Made by a program: the position numbers and the translations under genes. The notes beneath the pieces were generated by a model. It searched no databases. It was given only the letters and a program-made list of their open reading frames with translations, and had not been told where the DNA came from. Shown piece by piece: positions 46 to 28,554 of a DNA stretch of 28,617 bases. Where the stretch lies: IMG/VR virus record IMGVR_UViG_3300021961_000460, positions 1-28,617 of that record. One strand, given 5' to 3'. Every line of letters begins with the position of its first letter. The stretch's first letter is position 1. The DNA is from a virus.

Positions 46-471
46 ATGGCGGAACGCCCACGGTCAAATGATTCGCGGCAACTTCAAGGCGTAAAGGCCA
101 AGAAGAAAAAAAAGGCCGCGGCGAAAGATGAAATCAAAGACGCAAAGGACAGGCTACGCGGCGAAATTCTCCGGGACGTTGATCCGGATCTTCACGCGGC
201 GTTCGACGCGTTTGGGGAAGGTTGCGATCTGGAGATTCTCACGAAGATGGTGGGCATGGAATTTGTGAGACTTCAGCGAAGCCTTGGACCCGGCGAAGCC
301 CCGGACTTCAGATATTGGGCGGCGTTGAACAAGATCGTTGATCAGCTGCGCAGGCTGATCACGATTCGCGAAGGTTCGGAAACCTTCATCCCGGACGCGG
401 TGACAATGCTACTTGGAAAGCCACCGGAAAAGTTGGACAAGGACAGAAGCGACGTTCCTGAATATTCATGA
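46..471 (+). CDS. Putative small terminase subunit (TerS-like)
   Basis: A 141-residue protein directly upstream of the large terminase, sharing an ATGA stop/start overlap with it. A good Shine-Dalgarno stretch (GGGGAGAGG) precedes the ATG. The N-terminus is very basic, with a lysine run near residues 18-25, followed by a helical, charged body with no motif I recognise. Small terminase subunits bind the packaging site and feed DNA to the large subunit. They diverge quickly, so the call rests on position, size and basic N-terminus. I cannot make out a clear helix-turn-helix, so another small packaging accessory protein remains possible. Confidence 0.6.
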   Translation: MAERPRSNDSRQLQGVKAKKKKKAAAKDEIKDAKDRLRGEILRDVDPDLHAAFDAFGEGCDLEILTKMVGMEFVRLQRSLGPGEAPDFRYWAALNKIVDQLRRLITIREGSETFIPDAVTMLLGKPPEKLDKDRSDVPEYS

Positions 472-1862
472 GATCCGAAGAATACCCAATTACCGCTTTT
501 GGAATCATGGAACCGCACCCGGCGCAACGGCGGGTTTTGTGCGCGGACCCGGGAAAGTCAATCCTTTACCTTGGCGGGCGGGGAAGCGGAAAAACCGTGG
601 TGGGCATTGCCCGCTCAATCGTCCAATGTATGCGCCCGGAAAATGCGGGACAAGCCTACGCAATTATTGCGCCGACCTATCGGATCTTAGTCCGGGTCCA
701 TTTGAAAGTTTTGATGGATATGTTGGACGCATTCAAAACGGAAGCCGGTTGGTCATTGGTCAAACGATATTACAAGCACGATCAACGGTTGGTTCTACGC
801 AATGAATGCGAAATCTTCCTTGCTTCCTTTTCAAACGTGGACAAGATCCGATCTATGACTTTGGGCGCGGGCGTGTATCTCGACGAAATTGAAATTGACC
901 GGGAGCCGATGCAAACCCTAAGCACGATCGCGGGTTCAATTCGTGGAAGCCAAGGAAGCCAAGGGCTTTTAGTAACCACAACCCCGCGGGGTATGCGGGG
1001 AACGGTGGCGCACTGGATCAGCCGAACCCGGGAAGGTTCGGAAGAGTTTGATCCGAACTACCAGTTGATCATTTCCAAGACATTCGAGAATCCCTATATC
1101 AACAAGGCATTCGTTGATCGGCTTCGTTCGTCCATGTCCAAGATCGTTTTTGAGCAAGAAGTTTTGGCCCGGGTCGCACGGGCTTCCGCCACGGCTTTGG
1201 GGAATGAATGGAACCGATCGAAACATCTGATTGATTATCGTTACAGGAAGGGGACTCGATACGCGATCGGGGTGGACCCGGGCTATTCAAACGCTTCAAT
1301 CCTCTTCATTGCCGAAGTGGACAGGCCCGACGGCCCGCCGCGGGAAATTATCTTTCGGGAGTATCACCCCGAGGAACAAAGTTTTGACAAGACAATCCGC
1401 CAGATCGCTTCCGTTGTTCGGGAACTTGGAACGGAACCGTATTTGATAGCGTCCGATCGCGCCCTTCCCCAATTCAACCAAAGATTGATCCGGGAGTTTC
1501 CTTCCGCGACTGTTAAAACAATGCGGACCCGAGAGGAGCAAGCGGTATGGGCGGGCATTGATCGGATCCGTTCTTTGCTGGACCCGCAAGAGGGTCCGCC
1601 CGTTCTGCACGTTTCAAAAGACTTGTTGAAGACTCCAAAACGTGGGATCGTGACGTCAATGGAAAACTTGCGCCGCCGCGTAGTTGCGGGGGAAGCGGTG
1701 GACGCGTTAGAAAAAGGATCGGACGGCTTGGATCACGTCATGGACGCGTTGAACTATTTTGTGAAGGCAAAATACGGCCGGCGGGGTTATTCTTCGGCGT
1801 ATGATTCCGGGGGCGCGGCGGATAGTGCAATGTTAAGCAAGGGCAGATGGGGCAAACTATGA
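468..1862 (+). CDS. Terminase large subunit (packaging ATPase-nuclease)
   Basis: The 464-residue motor that drives DNA into the prohead and cuts it. The Walker A motif GRGSGKT lies at residues 37-43, and a Walker B-like GVYLDEIE follows near 134-141. The C-terminal RNase H-fold nuclease shows YAIGVDPGYSN (first acidic ligand), YLIASD, and a late DGLDHVMDALNY segment that supplies further acids. Length is normal for the family. The start overlaps the preceding stop as ATGA. An internal ATG 13 codons later (MEPHPAQ) is an alternative start. Packaging strategy (cos or pac) cannot be told from the protein alone. Confidence 0.95.
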   Translation: MRSEEYPITAFGIMEPHPAQRRVLCADPGKSILYLGGRGSGKTVVGIARSIVQCMRPENAGQAYAIIAPTYRILVRVHLKVLMDMLDAFKTEAGWSLVKRYYKHDQRLVLRNECEIFLASFSNVDKIRSMTLGAGVYLDEIEIDREPMQTLSTIAGSIRGSQGSQGLLVTTTPRGMRGTVAHWISRTREGSEEFDPNYQLIISKTFENPYINKAFVDRLRSSMSKIVFEQEVLARVARASATALGNEWNRSKHLIDYRYRKGTRYAIGVDPGYSNASILFIAEVDRPDGPPREIIFREYHPEEQSFDKTIRQIASVVRELGTEPYLIASDRALPQFNQRLIREFPSATVKTMRTREEQAVWAGIDRIRSLLDPQEGPPVLHVSKDLLKTPKRGIVTSMENLRRRVVAGEAVDALEKGSDGLDHVMDALNYFVKAKYGRRGYSSAYDSGGAADSAMLSKGRWGKL

Positions 1863-20579: not shown

Positions 20580-20607
20580 AAAAAGCCGGCGTTTTTGGCC
20601 CCGGCTT
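20580..20607 (-). terminator. Rho-independent terminator of the leftward recombination operon
   Basis: Read on the minus strand, the stem AAGCCGG / CCGGCTT (7 pairs) has an 11-base loop containing GGCC and AAAAA, followed by a run of five T. It begins within the stop codon of the Sak4-like gene. Confidence 0.7.
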
Positions 20608-21364
20608 ACTCTCCCGCACCCTGAGATCGTCTCTTGTAGGCTTCCCGGAAAAAGTTCAAAAAGCCTTTTCCGTCCAGTGGGAAAACTTCGGGTAACACGT
20701 CGCCACGTTGCCCACCCATCCCGTCTAATTCTGTGCAAGTCGCTAAGCGGTTTCCCTGTTCGTCTTTGAAAGCCCGAATCATAAGATCCGAACGCTTCGC
20801 AATGATAAACCGGGATGATTCCGTTAGCGTGGGGAAGTAGGTTAACTTTTTTTGACCACCGAACCGTTCTGGATCCGCTAAACGATTGCCGGCCATGTCC
20901 GTCTCCACTTGGGTGGCGTGGTCCAGAAACACGCAAGCCCAAGGGCCGGCCATTAAAAGGTTCAACGCGTTTTTCCATGTTTGGGAAACCTTGCCCCACC
21001 CGGCGCGGCCGCCGAACTTCGGATCCGCCGGGTCAACTGCCCGCTTAAGCTGGCAAACGTGGCGGACCAGCTGATCGCGAAGTTCCGTCATTGAGTCCAC
21101 CACAATCACCCCAAAACCGTGATCGGGGTTTTTGTGGAGTTCTTCAACCGCTTGGACAAATTCCGGCCACGTTCGGATCTGAACGTCGAAACAATCGGGT
21201 TCGATCCGAAGCGTTCCGCCTTCACAATCCAGAAAAAGAACTTTCCCGTTTTTCGTCTCCAGATTCGCTGCAAAGGTTGTTTTTCCAACCTTTGGGGGGC
21301 CGTAAAGATAAACGATCAAACCGTCCAGCCCGATCACCTGTTCACGTTTCTTCGTTGGCAACAT
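20606..21364 (-). CDS. Sak4-like RecA-fold ATPase (single-strand annealing recombinase)
   Basis: A 252-residue P-loop ATPase. Walker A is GPPKVGKT at residues 22-29, preceded by LIVYLY. A glutamate-containing FLDCEGGT follows, and Walker B is VIVVDSMTE. Phage proteins of this build next to a YqaJ-type exonuclease are known as Sak4 or AAA_24 proteins and promote strand annealing together with a phage SSB. No SSB gene is obvious here. It starts one base after the YqaJ stop, so both come from one leftward transcript ending at the 20580 terminator. A generic phage NTP-binding protein would be the conservative label. Confidence 0.8.
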   Translation of the reverse strand: MLPTKKREQVIGLDGLIVYLYGPPKVGKTTFAANLETKNGKVLFLDCEGGTLRIEPDCFDVQIRTWPEFVQAVEELHKNPDHGFGVIVVDSMTELRDQLVRHVCQLKRAVDPADPKFGGRAGWGKVSQTWKNALNLLMAGPWACVFLDHATQVETDMAGNRLADPERFGGQKKLTYFPTLTESSRFIIAKRSDLMIRAFKDEQGNRLATCTELDGMGGQRGDVLPEVFPLDGKGFLNFFREAYKRRSQGAGE

Positions 21365-21365
21365 T

Positions 21366-22277
21366 TCAAACCACCTTTACAGTGAACCGCCGGCCGCGGG
21401 CAGTTCTTGACCATTTCACGATCGCACCATTTGCGATCAATTCTTCACCGTCGCCGATCAACGCTTTCAAAACGTTTTCGGCTTCGGTTTTCTTCTCCCC
21501 TTCGAACTTCTCGCGGGCTTTGCTTTCGAAGTACAATTCCAAAGCGCGATCGGCCACTTCATTCCCTCGGGCGTCGAATGGTTCAGGCGCGTCCGGCTTC
21601 GTGTCGTAAAGAAGATCCAAAGCCTTCGCCGTCTTTTCTGAATTGTCCAGCATCCAAAACACGTCGCCGGCTTCCATTCGGGCCCACAATTCAAGTTCTG
21701 CTTTTTGCAGGGCTTCCAGTTCTTCAAGGTCCGGAAATATCCAGAAGAATTCTTCCCGGTAGCCTTCCGTTAGCGCGCCCAAAACGCAAAAATCTAACCG
21801 TGTCACCAAAAGGTAGTGAAGGCATTGGGCGCGATAGTGCTTCGGGATTCCGTCCTTGAACATCAACCCGCCATGCATTGAAAGCGCGGTTTTCGCTTCA
21901 ATAATCCCCGCGCCCTTGTCTCCAAAGGCCCCGGCGTCCATGGTTGCGCGGAGTTGGGGGAAGTCTGGATCGATCATTAGTGGAAGATCTTGAACTTCCC
22001 GGATCGCGTTTGGGAACCGTTGCTTGACCATGTCCACCACAAGGGGTTCCAAAGCGTGACCCCAACGCGTGGCGTTGTTCTCCACTTTTTTGGCCTTGTT
22101 TCGGAACTTGTCAAGATACAGATCGAGGGCGCACTTGTAAGGGTGAACCCCCAACGCCACGGCCGCATCACTTCCACCGATTCCACCGCGCCGCCATTCC
22201 AACCATTCTTGATCGGTCAAGTCCTTTTGGAATGGTCCCCGTGTTGGTTGTTTTTTTCTACTTTTCGCAAAATTCAT
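21366..22277 (-). CDS. YqaJ-like viral recombination exonuclease
   Basis: The ATG at 22277 gives 303 residues. It shows the lambda-exonuclease/YqaJ pattern of the PD-(D/E)XK fold: GGIGGSDAAVALG (residues 31-43), RWGHALEP with Glu77, then MDAG with Asp114 and IIEAKT with Glu127 and Lys129. A HYLLVT helix region follows. The C-terminal 100 residues are helical and charged. It would resect double-stranded ends 5' to 3' for annealing by the neighbouring Sak4-like protein. The start has no Shine-Dalgarno sequence and lies about seven bases from a predicted -10 box. An in-frame TTG at 22313 is unlikely because it falls in the -35 region. Confidence 0.9.
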   Translation of the reverse strand: MNFAKSRKKQPTRGPFQKDLTDQEWLEWRRGGIGGSDAAVALGVHPYKCALDLYLDKFRNKAKKVENNATRWGHALEPLVVDMVKQRFPNAIREVQDLPLMIDPDFPQLRATMDAGAFGDKGAGIIEAKTALSMHGGLMFKDGIPKHYRAQCLHYLLVTRLDFCVLGALTEGYREEFFWIFPDLEELEALQKAELELWARMEAGDVFWMLDNSEKTAKALDLLYDTKPDAPEPFDARGNEVADRALELYFESKAREKFEGEKKTEAENVLKALIGDGEELIANGAIVKWSRTARGRRFTVKVV

Positions 22278-22279
22278 AT

Positions 22280-22313
22280 TTGACAAGTACGGAACCCCGC
22301 GTTTATTTGTCAA
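22280..22313. promoter_or_regulatory. Symmetric overlapping divergent promoters / operator
   Basis: A perfect inverted repeat TTGACAA (22280-22286) and TTGTCAA (22307-22313) with 20 bases between. Each arm supplies a consensus -35 box TTGACA pointing inward. With 18-base spacing each promoter has a weak -10 (TATTTG at 22304-22309 on plus, TACTTG at 22289-22284 on minus) that overlaps the other's -35. The ATG codons at 22316 (plus) and 22277 (minus) are each six bases beyond the -10, equally far from the centre, and neither has a ribosome site. Confidence 0.5.
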
Positions 22314-22315
22314 GC

Positions 22316-22546
22316 ATGAAGTTGACCGAATACCTAAACGAAACGAACCAAACCGTTCACGGCCTCGCCAAGGCCGCCGGCGTCACGCCGTCCGTGGTCT
22401 ACAAGTTCATCCAAGGCAATCAAAAAAGCGTGAAACCCCATATTGCCCGCGCAATTTCCGAAGCGACCGGGGGAAAGGTTGGGATACTGGATCTCTTGTT
22501 TCCGGATCAGACTTTTGAATTTCAGATCAAGGCGGTGGACAAGTGA
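22316..22546 (+). CDS. Cro-like HTH regulator
   Basis: A 76-residue protein from the ATG at 22316. Residues 1-45 form a helix-turn-helix: VHGLAKAAGVTPSVVYKFIQ, the usual Cro/CI pattern with recognition helix around TPSVVYKF. The remainder (IARAISEATGGKVGILDLLF) matches the end of the same domain. It lies at the edge of the palindromic promoter region and is the natural candidate to bind it. The following gene starts in a GTGA overlap. With no ribosome site upstream, the message may be leaderless. It is too small for a CI-type repressor with a separate dimerisation domain. Confidence 0.8.
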   Translation: MKLTEYLNETNQTVHGLAKAAGVTPSVVYKFIQGNQKSVKPHIARAISEATGGKVGILDLLFPDQTFEFQIKAVDK

Positions 22547-23031
22547 AAACGTGGTTTCCCGTGCCAATGTCTTGGATCAATTCACCCGCGTGGCACTCGC
22601 TTACGCCACGCGCCCGGGTGCTTTTGTTTCTACTTTGGGCGAAGTCCGAAACCGGAGAAGTTCCAGCGGACCCCAAAGCCGTCCAAGTTCTTTCCGGCAT
22701 GGCGGACAGGCCAAAGCGGATTGCGGAAGCGGTGGAAGAACTGAAGGCCGCGGGCTTTATTGAACGGGAAGAAACCGGCTTTTTTTTGGCTTCATTCCGT
22801 ACAATTTTGGCAAAATTTCGGCACAAATCCGGCACAAATTTGGCAAAAAATGTACGCAAGAAACGAACGATTCCAGAGACTTCCGCGGATCTCTCACGCG
22901 CGCGCGCTTTTCCCCCTAAAGGGGAAAAGAAAAGAAAAGACGAAAAAGGAACGAACCCACCGGGTGGCGGTTCGTCCTTTTCGTCAGAATTAGATCCGCG
23001 GGTTTTGGAATTGATGAAGGTGAAACCATGA
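22543..23031 (+). CDS. Replication initiation protein (winged-helix type) carrying internal origin repeats
   Basis: A 162-residue protein with a GTG start overlapping the regulator's stop. Residues 1-85 look like a winged helix of the phage replication protein/DnaD-N kind (WINSPAWHSLTPRARVLLF, then RIAEAVEELKAAGFI and a beta wing). Residues 95-150 are basic, Pro/Gly-rich and probably disordered. The gene comes just before the DnaB-like helicase, as lambda O and P18-type loaders do, so it probably binds the origin and recruits the helicase. The coding DNA for residues 86-148 contains four 11-bp repeats and two inverted repeats, listed separately. Confidence 0.65.
   Translation: MKTWFPVPMSWINSPAWHSLTPRARVLLFLLWAKSETGEVPADPKAVQVLSGMADRPKRIAEAVEELKAAGFIEREETGFFLASFRTILAKFRHKSGTNLAKNVRKKRTIPETSADLSRARAFPPKGEKKRKDEKGTNPPGGGSSFSSELDPRVLELMKVKP
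22798..22856. repeat. Four 11-bp iterons framed by an inverted repeat; probable replication origin
   Basis: Units at 22806, 22817, 22828 and 22839 follow the consensus TTYGGCAMAAA, with GGCA recurring at exactly 11-base steps (22809, 22820, 22831, 22842). The block is flanked by CGTACA (22798-22803) and TGTACG (22851-22856), a perfect inverted repeat. Since 11 is not a multiple of 3, the encoded peptide is not repetitive, so the periodicity is a DNA-level signal. Placement inside the replication protein gene resembles lambda ori inside O. Confidence 0.65.
22907..22929. repeat. Inverted repeat next to the iterons
   Basis: CTTTTCCCC (22907-22915) and GGGGAAAAG (22921-22929) form a perfect nine-pair stem with the loop CTAAA. 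A CG-alternating run (22898-22907) lies just upstream, and a purine-rich A-rich stretch follows. It may be a structural part of the origin. No U-run follows it, so a terminator role is less likely. Confidence 0.5.
22939..22985. repeat. Long imperfect hairpin in the origin region
   Basis: The left arm 22939-22957 (GACGAAAAAGGAACGAACC) pairs with the right arm 22969-22985 (GGTTCGTCCTTTTCGTC). All 17 bases of the right arm can pair, leaving two single-base bulges in the left arm. The apex carries a further CACC/GGTG pairing. It lies within the replication protein gene over a low-complexity linker. Confidence 0.55.
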
Positions 23032-24320
23032 GATCTGAAGAATTGGAAAAGGTGGCACTTTCGACGGTGCTTTATTATCAGGAAGTGGTGGGACAACCGA
23101 TTGAACCCGTTGATCCTGAATTGTTCACGGTTGCGGGCTTCAAGGCGGTGGCCGAAGCCATGCGGGAAGTGGGGCCCCACGCCCTTTTGATTCTGGAGAA
23201 AGTAAAGAATGACCAAGTTGCGACCCGGGCTATTTGTAATCTTGTTGGGGAGTTTGAACGGCACGCGGTTCCCGCTGGAGTATTTGAAAACAAGGTTTTG
23301 GAGCCGCTTCGAACGTATAAACGCGGGCGCGGCTTGGAACTTGCGGCGCGTGAATCGATCGCCCTTGTGCGCCAACAGGAAGTGGCCAAGGCGTCCCAAC
23401 ACCTAAAAGAACGGCTGGAAGAGGAAGACGCGAAGAACGAAGCCAAAACCGTGAAAAACGCGGTGCATGGGTCGATTGAATATCTTGATCTTTTGTCCAA
23501 ACTTTTGGGACCGGAAGAGATGGACGAAAGGATCAAAACCGGGATCGAACTAATCGACAAGACAATCAACGCTTCGATCGGGGGCGGGTTGCACGAAGGG
23601 CAGATCGCCACCATTGCAGCAAGGCCGGGCCGTGGAAAATCCACCGTCATGGCTTGGATCGTCTTTTCAATTCTCAAAAGCAACGAAGCGGAAAAGGTTG
23701 GCATTTTTTCCTTTGAAATGACGGCCCGCGACGTTTCCAAGAAATTGATCGACGCGGAGATCGGAAGGCGGGGACAGTCCACCGCGTTGGGGCCGGGATA
23801 TGCGGGCGCGGCGTCGTGTGTCATTGCGGATCTGGAAAAGACTTTTCAACGGGTTTTGATTGACGACCGAAGCGGGTTGGAAGTTTCGGAAATTATCGAA
23901 GCGGCCGAAAATATGGGAAAACAAGGGGTCCGGCTTTTCTTCGTGGACTATATCCAACGCGTGAAAGTTGGAGACGTGAACCCCGAAGCGTTGCGGGTTG
24001 CATTTGCGGAAGTGGTCGAAGCCTTGACCCTAGACGCAAAGCGGAACGGAAGGATCTGGATCCTTTTGTCTCAATTCAGCCGAAGCGCGGAAGGCCGGCC
24101 CGGGACAATGGCGGACCTAAAAGAAACGTCGGCACTCGAAGAAAACAGCTTTTTCGTTTTTGGACTTCACCGGCCTCACACGGTGGAAAATGGGGTTCAA
24201 AAGTTGGATTCAAACCGGTTGGAAATTCACGTTTTGAAAAACCGCTTCGGGGAAGTGGGTGGGGTTTATCCGTATCGGGTGAATTGGCCGGCGTGTCAAT
24301 TTGAAGCGTTGGGGAATTAA
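23028..24320 (+). CDS. DnaB-like replicative DNA helicase
   Basis: A 430-residue hexameric helicase coupled to the initiator gene by ATGA. An N-terminal helical domain (about residues 1-140) is followed by the RecA-type motor: TGIELIDKTINASIGGGLHEG, Walker A ARPGRGKST at about residues 197-205, the DnaB signature FSFEMTARDVSKK, Walker B LFFVDYIQRV, and LLSQFSRSAEGRPG with sensor residues. The end FEVHVLKNRFG-like segment (EIHVLKNRFGEVGG) carries the conserved arginine-finger region. It unwinds the phage fork. No separate primase or polymerase gene is visible, so the host enzymes probably do the synthesis. Confidence 0.93.
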   Translation: MRSEELEKVALSTVLYYQEVVGQPIEPVDPELFTVAGFKAVAEAMREVGPHALLILEKVKNDQVATRAICNLVGEFERHAVPAGVFENKVLEPLRTYKRGRGLELAARESIALVRQQEVAKASQHLKERLEEEDAKNEAKTVKNAVHGSIEYLDLLSKLLGPEEMDERIKTGIELIDKTINASIGGGLHEGQIATIAARPGRGKSTVMAWIVFSILKSNEAEKVGIFSFEMTARDVSKKLIDAEIGRRGQSTALGPGYAGAASCVIADLEKTFQRVLIDDRSGLEVSEIIEAAENMGKQGVRLFFVDYIQRVKVGDVNPEALRVAFAEVVEALTLDAKRNGRIWILLSQFSRSAEGRPGTMADLKETSALEENSFFVFGLHRPHTVENGVQKLDSNRLEIHVLKNRFGEVGGVYPYRVNWPACQFEALGN

Positions 24321-25037
24321 ATGATCAAGCCTTACGAATGCATCCTTGGCGATTGCCTTGAAGTCATGGCCGACATTCCAACCGATTCAGTGGATGCGGT
24401 TTTGACGGATCCGCCGTATGGAACGGCGTCCGAATCCAAGGTTGTGAAGTTAGAAACGTTCGATCACGCGTGGGATCGGTCGCTTCCTTTGGAATATCTT
24501 GAAGAATGCGCCCGGGTTTTGAAGCCGGGCGGATCATTGGTGACTTTCACCGACACCAAACGGGTGGAAACCGTTTGGAACTTTCTGGAATCGGTTGGGT
24601 TGAATCCATTGCAAACGTTCTACTGGGTGAAGACAAACCCACCACCCCAGCCGCGCAAGAACTTCCAAAGCGCGGTGGAATCCGCGATCTTCGCTCGCAA
24701 GCCGGGGAAGGTTTTGTTTTGGGGCGGCGGTGGTGCTTCGGCAAACGTGATCAGTTCTTCGATTGCAATGGGTGGGGATAGGACAGCGCACCCAACCCAA
24801 AAACACGTGGCTCCAATGAAATATTTGATGGAGTTGGTTTGTCCACCCGGCGGGATTGTTCTGGACCCGTTTGGCGGTTCAGGAACGACGGGGGTGGCCG
24901 GGCTTTTGACGGGCCGGCGGGTGCTATTGATTGAAAAGGATCCGGAATATCACCGGATCGCGCTTGATAGGCTTGTTGCTTGGGAGCGTTCGGACATGGT
25001 GCGGCAAATGTCGCTTTTTGGGGAGGCTTATGAATGA
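24321..25037 (+). CDS. DNA methyltransferase, DPPY type (N6-adenine or N4-cytosine)
   Basis: A 238-residue amino-methyltransferase beginning directly after the helicase stop. The catalytic motif DPPYGT is at residues 30-35, and the AdoMet-binding motif DPFGGSGTT is at 182-190, followed by LIEKDPEYHRIALDRL. This order (catalytic first, AdoMet later) is the beta class. The short central part (residues 60-170) would hold target recognition, including PTQKHVAPMKYLM. No restriction enzyme is adjacent, so it is a solitary phage modifier that may protect DNA from host restriction. The recognised sequence is not readable from the protein. Confidence 0.92.
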   Translation: MIKPYECILGDCLEVMADIPTDSVDAVLTDPPYGTASESKVVKLETFDHAWDRSLPLEYLEECARVLKPGGSLVTFTDTKRVETVWNFLESVGLNPLQTFYWVKTNPPPQPRKNFQSAVESAIFARKPGKVLFWGGGGASANVISSSIAMGGDRTAHPTQKHVAPMKYLMELVCPPGGIVLDPFGGSGTTGVAGLLTGRRVLLIEKDPEYHRIALDRLVAWERSDMVRQMSLFGEAYE

Positions 25038-25818
25038 GTTGGCTTTATTCGCGGGGGCTGGTGGCGGAATTCTTGGGGGGAAACTGCTTGGATGGCGGAC
25101 AGTGTGCGCCGTTGAGCGGGACGAATACGCCGCAAGCGTACTTATACAACGACAAAACGATGGACACTTGGAACCCTTCCCGGTTTGGTGTGACGTGCGA
25201 ACTTTTGACGGAAAGCCTTGGCGTGGAATTGTTGACGTGGTTTCGGGCGGGTTTCCTTGTCAGGACATCAGCAGCGCGGGAAAAGGGGCCGGAATTGAAG
25301 GAGAAAAATCCTCAATGTGGGTGGAGATGGCACGAATCATCGGTGAAGTACGACCCAAGTACGTTTTCGTGGAAAACTCGCCAATGCTCACTGGCCGGGG
25401 GCTTGGTCGAGTTCTCGGGGACTTGGCCGCGCTGGGGTACGATGCGGAATGGGGAGTCGTGGGAGCGCATCATGCCGGCGGACCTCACAAACGGGACAGG
25501 ATCTGGATCGTTGCTTGCGACTCCGACAGCGACGGCAAACCAACTCAGTCCCTCAATGATGAAGCATTCGGGGTGCCGAAATTGGCTTCCGACTCCAACC
25601 GCGCACAACTCGAAAGAAGCGGCTTGCCCAGCAGAATTCAAAAGGAAAACGATCACTTTGGCCGCAACAGTTGGTGGAAAATTGAACCCGGGATGGGTCG
25701 AGTGGCTAATGGGGTGGCCCGTCGGGTGGACCGATTGCGAGCCATTGGCAATGGACAAGTTCCGGGAGTGGCGGCAATCGCATTTGAAATCCTAAGAGAA
25801 AGACTGGAGGAACGATGA
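25030..25818 (+). CDS. C5-cytosine DNA methyltransferase
   Basis: The ATG at 25030 overlaps the upstream methyltransferase by eight bases and gives 262 residues. Motifs: I at residues 4-13 (LALFAGAGGG), IV with the catalytic cysteine at residue 77 (SGGFPCQDIS), VI with VEN at 114-116, VIII-like HKRDRIWIVA, and a final IX/X block RLRAIGNGQVPGVAA. The target recognition part is short (about 70 residues). Only three bases separate the GGGGAGG ribosome site from this ATG. The whole gene is overlapped in the +1 frame by another long reading frame starting at 25034. It methylates cytosine at carbon 5, with unknown target. Confidence 0.93.
   Translation: MNELALFAGAGGGILGGKLLGWRTVCAVERDEYAASVLIQRQNDGHLEPFPVWCDVRTFDGKPWRGIVDVVSGGFPCQDISSAGKGAGIEGEKSSMWVEMARIIGEVRPKYVFVENSPMLTGRGLGRVLGDLAALGYDAEWGVVGAHHAGGPHKRDRIWIVACDSDSDGKPTQSLNDEAFGVPKLASDSNRAQLERSGLPSRIQKENDHFGRNSWWKIEPGMGRVANGVARRVDRLRAIGNGQVPGVAAIAFEILRERLEER
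25034..25795 (+). CDS. Overprinted protein nested out of frame in the C5-methyltransferase gene
   Basis: A 253-codon frame, +1 to the methyltransferase, starting MSWLYSRGLVAEF at an ATG that overlaps the upstream stop as ATGA, the standard coupling here. GGGGAGG is seven bases upstream, better spaced than for the 25030 start. It contains YDPSTFSWKTR, FSGTWPRWGTMRNG, two TPTA motifs (LLATPTATAN, WLPTPTAHNSKE) and LNPGWVEWLMGWPVGWT. I recall annotated phage proteins with just these motifs (MSWLYSQ starts, TWPRWG, LNP..VEWLMG.P.GWT), so this may be a real protein family. Its function is unknown to me. It could also be a conserved out-of-frame shadow of methyltransferase motifs. Confidence 0.5.
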   Translation: MSWLYSRGLVAEFLGGNCLDGGQCAPLSGTNTPQAYLYNDKTMDTWNPSRFGVTCELLTESLGVELLTWFRAGFLVRTSAAREKGPELKEKNPQCGWRWHESSVKYDPSTFSWKTRQCSLAGGLVEFSGTWPRWGTMRNGESWERIMPADLTNGTGSGSLLATPTATANQLSPSMMKHSGCRNWLPTPTAHNSKEAACPAEFKRKTITLAATVGGKLNPGWVEWLMGWPVGWTDCEPLAMDKFREWRQSHLKS

Positions 25819-26793: not shown

Positions 26794-27279
26794 TTGCTTT
26801 ATTTTGGAATTGATCCGGGGTTGGATGGTTGCCTAGTTGTTCTCGACTTTCGCGGACGGTTGGTGGGGGTTCACAATCTTCCAACGGTGAAACTTGGAAC
26901 CAAGCGCGAGTTTTTGATCTCGGACTTCGCCCGGGTTGTGCGGCGGTACGTTCAGGAAGTGGAGCCGGAAAACATCCGGGCAACCGTTGAGCAGCACACC
27001 CCGATGCCGAAACAGGGGATTTCGAGTCAATGCAAAGGGGCCGGAATCGTCGGGGCCGTTTGTGGAGTCTTGGCCGGGTGCGGCATTAGTTTCCAAAAGG
27101 TTCATCCGCGCACTTGGACAAAGGTGATGCGCGACGCGCCCGGGAAAGACAAGAAAGGCCGATCGGTTTTTGTGGCTTCGAACCGTTGGCCGGATCTGGA
27201 ACTCAAAGGGGCGAAGGCGCACAACGTCGCGGATGCGGCCTTGATTGCGGAATGGGGGCGTCAGCAGTGGGACGAATGA
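26794..27279 (+). CDS. RuvC-like Holliday junction resolvase
   Basis: A 161-residue RNase H-fold nuclease with a TTG start after GGGGGTGG. The pattern is GIDPGLDG with Asp7, an acidic VEQHTPMP after the third strand, and a C-terminal AHNVADAALIAEW with the paired Asp residues typical of RuvC and related phage or poxvirus resolvases. The central KGAGIVGAVCG helix also matches. It would cut four-way junctions left by Sak4/YqaJ recombination and clear branched DNA before packaging. A role limited to crossover-junction cutting is inferred from the family. Confidence 0.85.
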   Translation: MLYFGIDPGLDGCLVVLDFRGRLVGVHNLPTVKLGTKREFLISDFARVVRRYVQEVEPENIRATVEQHTPMPKQGISSQCKGAGIVGAVCGVLAGCGISFQKVHPRTWTKVMRDAPGKDKKGRSVFVASNRWPDLELKGAKAHNVADAALIAEWGRQQWDE

Positions 27280-27573: not shown

Positions 27574-28057
27574 ACGTTGCACACGAGACGGCCGCCGCGG
27601 TTGGCGTTGGGGGTCGCGTGGCTTTTGTCACGTTGGAACGTTCGCAAAGGAACAAGCCGAAGCGGACGGGGATCCGTATTCCGAGATCAACCTTGTCCCA
27701 CCGCGTGACGTTCGCGAGGCGGCGGCCCTTGGGCTGGAACTTCGCCGGAAGTTTGGGCGCGGTGGATTGTCCAGCCGTGAGGCCGGGGAAGAAGGGATCC
27801 GATCCGGGGTGGTCCGGGCTTCGACGTTGGAACGCGGCTTGAGACTTCAACCCGAAACGATCCGGGCCATGGTTGCTTATTTTTCAAGACACGAAAAGGA
27901 CAGCGAAGCGGCCGGGAGTCGCTCCAGAGGGTTCTGGGGTGACAACTCCAATCCATCGGCGGGCTGGATTGCGTGGCTTTTATGGGGTGGGGACCCGGGA
28001 AGGGCTTGGGCTTTGGAACGTCTCGCGGAAATTGAAGCGGTGGAGGCGGAACGGTGA
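27563..28057 (+). CDS. Conserved phage protein with C-terminal SAGWIAWLLWGGDPG motif
   Basis: The ATG at 27563 with AGGAG nine bases upstream gives 164 residues. The start VERCTRDGRRGWRWGSRG has a Cys-x-Gly-Trp pattern. The middle has NLVPPRDVREAAALGLELRR and a Gly-rich loop. The end has LQPETIRAMVAYFSRHEKD and PSAGWIAWLLWGGDPGRAW. I recall this last region as a recurring module in phage genomes, sometimes fused to head proteins, without a settled function. It lies next to the RHH-nuclease gene near the packaging end, so a packaging or head role is possible but unproven. Confidence 0.65.
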   Translation: MPVERCTRDGRRGWRWGSRGFCHVGTFAKEQAEADGDPYSEINLVPPRDVREAAALGLELRRKFGRGGLSSREAGEEGIRSGVVRASTLERGLRLQPETIRAMVAYFSRHEKDSEAAGSRSRGFWGDNSNPSAGWIAWLLWGGDPGRAWALERLAEIEAVEAER

Positions 28058-28554
28058 AAGTTTTGAACTTCCGAGTTTCCGATCAAGTGCGCGAAGCGTT
28101 GGATCGGTTGGTTGATCAAGTTGCCGAATCAGGCGGAGAAATGAGTTTTTCCGAAGTGGCGCGACTTGCGATGGCCGAAGGGTTGGAATCCCTGAAGTTG
28201 AAAACCGCCGGGACGAATCACCACAAGGGCATCCGGTTTGAACGTTGGGTTCTAAAGCAGTTACGCGAAGCCTTGCCGGACTTTGAATTTGAACACTTGC
28301 GGGCCGAACAAGGCCGGAAGAATCCGGATATTTTGGGGCCGTTCTTCGCCTACGAATGCAAGACGGGGAAACGGCCTTCCACGCGTCAAGCGTTGGATCA
28401 GATAATGGAAAGCGATCGCGAGGGCCGGATGCCGGTTGCCGTGATTCGTGACGACGGCGGGGAAGCGTTTGTAGTGCTACCTTTGCCGGCTTTTTTGAAA
28501 TTGTTGAAAGCGTTTGGAGTTTTGGCGGGCTTCGTCCGGGAGGCGAACAAGTGA
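28054..28554 (+). CDS. Ribbon-helix-helix domain fused to a PD-(D/E)XK nuclease-like domain
   Basis: A 166-residue protein with a GTG start in a GTGA overlap. Residues 1-48 resemble a ribbon-helix-helix DNA-binding unit: strand VLNFRVSD, helix REALDRLVDQV, helix SFSEVARLAMAEGLE. Residues 58-150 carry the pieces of a PD-(D/E)XK nuclease: Glu63 in FERWV, Pro91-Asp92, and Glu101-Cys-Lys103 (YECKTGK), then the strand VAVIRDD. It is the last gene before the GC-rich end that probably joins the terminase genes, so it may nick or cut near the packaging site or in recombination. The function is inferred from motifs. Confidence 0.65.
   Translation: MKVLNFRVSDQVREALDRLVDQVAESGGEMSFSEVARLAMAEGLESLKLKTAGTNHHKGIRFERWVLKQLREALPDFEFEHLRAEQGRKNPDILGPFFAYECKTGKRPSTRQALDQIMESDREGRMPVAVIRDDGGEAFVVLPLPAFLKLLKAFGVLAGFVREANK

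Follow-up and report, generated by a model that had tools for sequence, protein, structure and literature searches.

The stretch of DNA analysed here (the window) is an entire IMG/VR virus record, 28,617 nucleotides of a virus of bacteria without close known relatives. Midway through a putative replication initiator gene it carries a tandem array of 11-bp iterons (Table 1), and we consider it very likely that this array serves as an origin of theta replication and is bound by the protein that its own host gene encodes, in the manner of SPP1 oriL and the lambda ori. The reading is supported by the array itself, by the DNA-level constraint on its repetition, by its predicted curvature, by gene order and by the recurrence of such arrays in open reading frames (ORFs) that adjoin helicase genes. 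An origin within the initiator gene is an already known arrangement (lambda, P22 and SPP1).

Table 1. Coordinates of the array, its surroundings and the neighbouring genes in the window.
Feature	Position	Strand	Basis or remark
Four 11-bp iterons, in register: TTTTGGCAAAA (22805), TTTCGGCACAA (22816), ATCCGGCACAA (22827), ATTTGGCAAAA (22838)	22805–22848	+	Letters, Tandem Repeats Finder, lag self-match, unit profile
Degenerate fifth unit, ATTCCGTACAA	22794–22804	+	In register with the four strong units
60-bp stretch of highest intrinsic curvature in the window	22776–22835		88.5 degrees predicted, wedge model; largely array
Candidate unwinding region, a 9-bp hairpin (TTTTCCCC/GGGGAAAA) ahead of an A-rich purine tract with GAAAA repeats	22907–22952		Tentative
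Putative replication initiator gene, 162 aa, GTG start	22543–23031	+	Synteny, weak phrog_270 match, low-confidence fold model
DnaB-like replicative helicase gene	23028–24320	+	phrog_19, E 1.5e-44; PF03796, E 7.5e-30, above cut-off
Cro/YdaS-like helix–turn–helix (HTH) gene, first of the operon	22316–22546	+	HTH match
YqaJ/RecE-like exonuclease gene, divergent	21366–22313	-	Exact start codon uncertain
Sak4-like single-strand annealing recombinase gene	20606–21364	-	phrog_124, E 5.5e-32

The iteron array and its DNA

An earlier note on this DNA, made from the letters alone, had described four iterons with GGCA cores at 11-base intervals, and these were confirmed letter for letter: the GGC cores lie at 22809, 22820, 22831 and 22842, in steps of 11 bases. 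Tandem Repeats Finder returned 22803–22848, with period 11, as the top-scoring array of the 28,617-base window. The lag-11 self-match of the array (26 of 33 bases) is the best in the window across lags 8–40; none of 200 first-order Markov simulations of the whole window exceeded 22 at lag 11, or 24 whatever the lag. The count of four holds for the strong units, but a degenerate fifth unit in the same register had been missed; scored with the unit profile, ATTCCGTACAA falls in the top 0.08% of 11-mers. The note had also framed the array with an inverted repeat. CGTACA (22798–22803) and TGTACG (22851–22856) are indeed both present as an inverted pair, but the left arm lies inside the fifth unit and a 6-bp inverted arm at most 20 nt away on each side occurs in ∼ 6% of simulations, which is chance level. 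We therefore rejected the pair as a separate flanking element.

A period out of step with the codons had been taken to imply selection at the level of the DNA, and this argument stood up to a direct comparison. The gene was recoded synonymously 20,000 times, drawing on the codon usage of the other genes of the window; the lag-11 self-match reached at most 25, and the observed 26 was never attained. The repetition is therefore not explained by the amino-acid sequence alone. The array exceeds both the Markov and the synonymous-codon nulls and reflects a DNA-level constraint.

No second array was found in the window, and a search of IMG/VR for the exact iteron array, as a degenerate pattern of three units, gave no hit. 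The window holds two DnaA boxes, equal to chance expectation, and neither is near the array. GC skew, suggested earlier as a check on the origin, proved uninformative: its sign flips with gene direction at ∼ 20.5 and ∼ 22.4 kb, and since it tracks gene direction in this window we rejected it as origin evidence.

The predicted curvature of the array region was attained by 16 of 2000 synonymous recodings. The arrays of lambda O and SPP1 gene 38 are also the curvature maxima of their own loci. Those of P22, phi80 and several other viruses are not, and curvature is consequently treated as supporting evidence only; as a general mark of such arrays it was rejected, several arrays elsewhere not being curved. 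The least stable 30 bp of the initiator gene begin at 22917, in the purine tract past the 9-bp hairpin. A GC-rich spacer of ∼ 50 bp separates the array from this tract, which is not exceptional in the window, and naming it as the opening site is a guess. As a separate observation, an alternating, Z-DNA-like CACGCGCGCGCGC precedes the perfect hairpin and the GAAAA repeats (22895–22952 in all), again inside the initiator gene.

The enclosing gene and its neighbours

The array lies at 0.58 of its gene and codes for approximately residues 88–102 of the 162-residue protein, immediately past the predicted DNA-binding domain. The protein gave a weak match to the PHROG family of ‘replication initiation protein’ (phrog_270; E 0.008, residues 9–101), a family also hit by P22 gp18 (E 3.5e-9) and by several initiators from the comparison described below. 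There was no match in Pfam, NCBIfam or the PDB sequences, none to the lambda O and P22 gp18 families (phrog_277 and phrog_345), and no relative in IMG/VR, GTDB genomes, phage records, plasmid records or the initiators that were fetched. Pairwise BLASTP gave E 0.06 against P22 gp18, which is not significant, and chance matches only against SPP1 gp38. By sequence the protein could thus not be placed in a known family, those of lambda O and SPP1 gp38 included. A single-sequence AlphaFold2 model (mean pLDDT 62, low confidence) has helices at 22–36, 44–54 and 57–70, the pattern expected of a winged helix. Comparison of this model with known folds returned nothing significant; the weak matches include Rep/initiator domains and phage DUF1376 proteins. 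On this model an N-terminal winged-helix DNA-binding domain is probable, and it is predicted to give way to a basic, low-complexity tail at the position of the array. We regard the protein as a putative initiator on the basis of synteny, the one weak profile match and the low-confidence model.

The initiator gene lies directly upstream of the helicase gene, whose product contains a DnaB C-terminal domain (PF03796), and overlaps it by 4 nt (ATGA). Its own GTG start sits on the stop codon of the HTH gene (GTGA). The small HTH protein matched Pfam YdaS_toxin barely above cut-off. Divergent from this operon are the genes for the Sak4-like annealing protein and the exonuclease; the latter is 28% identical to SPP1 gp34.1. 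The terminase genes occupy the opposite end of the window (46–1862). Pattern searches found no relatives of the terminase or the exonuclease in IMG/VR, and the capsid and a tail protein had none among phage records.

The region between the exonuclease and HTH genes contains an operator-like inverted repeat, TTTGACAAGTA/TATTTGTCAA (22254–22323). One iteron-like site on its own, TTTTCGCAAAA at 22262, falls within the divergent promoter region (22254–22318) and is the best + strand match to the unit profile outside the array. Autoregulation by the initiator or the HTH protein through this site and the inverted repeat is possible. Two further observations concern genes downstream. Two + strand frames that overlap, 24931–25818 and 25034–25795, each match DNA methyltransferases: one hits PF00145/phrog_363 and the other phrog_1008 (E 1e-24), the latter with relatives in phage records that reach 44% identity across 99% of its length. 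Judged by sequence, the pair is a candidate dual-coding overlap. The same small genome also encodes two Holliday junction resolvases of different families, RuvC-like (phrog_1770) and RusA-like (phrog_244), at 26794–27279 and 28054–28554.

Known origins and helicase-adjoining genes of other viruses

The same scan was applied to known or annotated origins as positive controls. It recovered repeats at lag 20 and 0.41 of the gene in lambda O, at lag 24 and 0.48 in P22 gene 18, and at lag 21 and 0.57 of the part fetched in phi80 gene 15. In SPP1 gene 38 (X67865) it returned lag 11 at 0.50 of the gene, where the DNA of the locus is also most curved; a possible reading of the units is GAAGAAACGAC AGAGAAACGAC ACGAAAAAGAC ACGAAAAAGAC, with AT-rich repeats after them. 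Gene 38 of SPP1 contains oriL, whose direct repeats are the binding sites of gp38 (PMC6316719; PMC5499656); an AT-rich unwinding element is a further part of this origin (PMC6316719). Judging from position, the array that we detect presumably corresponds to the published gp38 sites.

SPP1 oriL is the nearest known system in spacing, and P22 18/12 the nearest in gene order. SPP1 shares with the window an 11-bp-period array in the middle of the initiator gene, at the most curved DNA of the locus, and it likewise has genes for a DnaB-type helicase and for an exonuclease of YqaJ type. It differs in that the initiators have no detectable similarity, that the AT-rich repeats follow the array directly instead of after a GC-rich stretch, and that in SPP1 the helicase loader has its own gene, 39, and oriL is accompanied by another origin, oriR (PMC6316719). 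In P22, as here, the initiator gene overlaps a DnaB-like helicase gene (gene 12) by 4 nt, with the origin mid-gene, no loader gene between the two, and an initiator that touches phrog_270; the repeat lag of 24 bp is different and there is no significant protein similarity. The lambda ori in gene O resembles the array in having four iterons mid-gene and strong predicted curvature. It is unlike the window in its loader P, which recruits the host helicase, in its 18-bp iterons spaced 20–24 bp apart and in the AT-rich tract adjacent to them. The lambda-type parallel proposed in the earlier note thus stands for the placing of the origin within the initiator gene, but SPP1, with its 11-bp period, is the closer system. 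The origin of lambdoid phages occupies the middle of gene O and comprises iterons, to which O binds, and an AT-rich tract; changes to the iterons that spare the protein sequence abolish replication (PMC7466680). The lambda iterons bind the gene O product (PMC7466680); here the 162-residue protein would be the one that binds. In all three known systems, as in the window, the (here putative) initiator gene has direct repeats in tandem midway along its coding sequence.

Since no close relative was available, the scan was extended to genes of other viruses that occupy the corresponding position. The set consisted of 80 IMG/VR loci obtained by alignment of related helicases, 13 found earlier and three phage loci; clustering by helicase left 45 independent loci (44 relatives and the window) with 900 bp upstream. 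Repeats were scored when they reached p ≤ 0.01 in comparison with Markov shuffles and their period was not divisible by three. Significant arrays of this kind were present in the upstream 900 bp at 18 of the 45 loci, within none of the 45 helicase genes and in none of 43 downstream regions. A second test was restricted to upstream ORFs of at least 140 aa ending at most 12 nt from the helicase start, with loci from species-genome contigs added. Here 18 of 47 clusters had an array in the adjoining ORF, compared with 0 of 47 equal lengths of helicase; the window itself is one of the 18 in both tests. The period is 10 bp in five of the 18 and 11 bp in eight (13/18), and 14 of the arrays lie at 0.48–0.62 of the gene. 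Some of the arrays (e.g. L003, L055 and L072) are simple A/G-rich repeats and carry less weight.

The loci most like the window are uncharacterised IMG/VR loci (L056/L073, L088, L046 and L053) in which an ORF adjoining a DnaB-like helicase gene has an 11-bp array at 0.49–0.59; their repeat sequences are different and their initiators lack similarity to the 162-residue protein at the level tested. At five further loci (L049, L064, L066, L078 and L092) a 10-bp array of ATGCCAACAT-like units lies upstream of the helicase gene, in or near a short ORF. One helicase-adjoining gene (L080, 1826–1900) contains two different successive 10-bp arrays, of CCAGCGGAGA and ACATAACAGG types, and its protein has no PHROG match. 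A scan of species-genome contigs was positive upstream at 2 of 46 loci and downstream at 5 of 45, without enrichment. These loci seldom have an adjoining upstream ORF of phage type (only 3 of 46 overlap) and are not a fair repeat; the scan neither repeats nor contradicts the virus result and lends it no support; it also makes clear that the test can give positives elsewhere. Taken with the DnaB-like neighbour, the nulls that were exceeded and the recovery of known origins, the contrast between 18 of 47 and 0 of 47 leaves the proposal of the earlier note, an origin inside the initiator gene bound by its own product, as the best-supported reading.

Alternative readings and a model for initiation

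The array could be an operator, at which the initiator, the HTH protein or a host protein regulates transcription of the early operon without any origin activity. Curved A-tract DNA is frequent in regulatory regions, and the similar single site at 22262 lies in the divergent promoter region. The array itself, however, is ∼ 480 bp inside the transcribed unit with no promoter-like site found nearby, and mid-gene arrays recur in helicase-adjoining ORFs, known origins included; we therefore think this reading unlikely. A role as a packaging or recombination site (pac, cos or a resolvase target) seems the least probable of all. Short repeats and bent DNA are used at such sites too, and recombination genes flank the locus, but the terminase genes are at the other end of the window and the array is within a gene that adjoins a helicase gene.

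Two readings place the function of the stretch in the transcript or the protein. The array may simply reflect the coding of a basic, disordered linker, with many lysines and A-rich codons, and have no function as DNA. The array does coincide with the switch from the predicted DNA-binding domain to the basic tail, and some arrays at other loci are simple A/G-rich repeats. The unit consensus, GGCAMAAWTYY, is nevertheless not of low complexity, and the non-codon period and the outcome of the synonymous recodings largely refute this explanation, which we now consider very unlikely. Highly improbable, too, is an mRNA hairpin that tunes translation of the initiator or the helicase. The stretch self-folds (z -4.1 as DNA, -2.2 as RNA), but the units are individually near-palindromic and arranged in tandem, so that self-complementarity is a by-product; the RNA z-score is modest, the stem is interrupted, there is no match in Rfam, and neither a strict 11-bp period nor curvature is needed for a hairpin.

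For the array as an origin we suggest the following model, in which binding by the 162-residue protein, the opening site, helicase loading and origin activity are all inferred. Copies of the protein would bind the five in-register 11-bp sites through their predicted N-terminal winged-helix domains and would sit side by side, roughly on one face of DNA that is already curved. The earlier note had placed the sites on one face of the helix; this is approximately right, because 11 bp is near the helical turn of ∼ 10.5 bp, but the difference amounts to a drift of ∼ 17 degrees per unit. The bound copies would form a compact nucleoprotein complex that wraps or bends the DNA. This complex may then open nearby A-rich DNA, perhaps 22907–22952, and pass the DnaB-like helicase, the product of the overlapping downstream gene, onto the opened strand.

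It is possible, though we hold it to be doubtful, that the 162-residue protein is the founder of an unrecognised and unusually short initiator family, which needs no loader and itself loads a DnaB-like helicase from an origin whose sites are spaced one turn apart, and that in addition 10–11 bp phasing inside the initiator gene is a general, so far uncollected rule in tailed phages that encode their own DnaB-like helicase. The probable origin was located from sequence alone, with statistical control, in an uncultured virus without close relatives. A simple scan for repeats of non-codon period ahead of a DnaB-like helicase gene finds candidate origins across many unrelated phages, most of them with 10- or 11-bp spacing, and the rule that origin complexes assemble on one face of the helix becomes testable on many systems. 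For specialists, this 10–11 bp spacing in the helicase-adjoining ORFs of phages may be the most useful part of the result.
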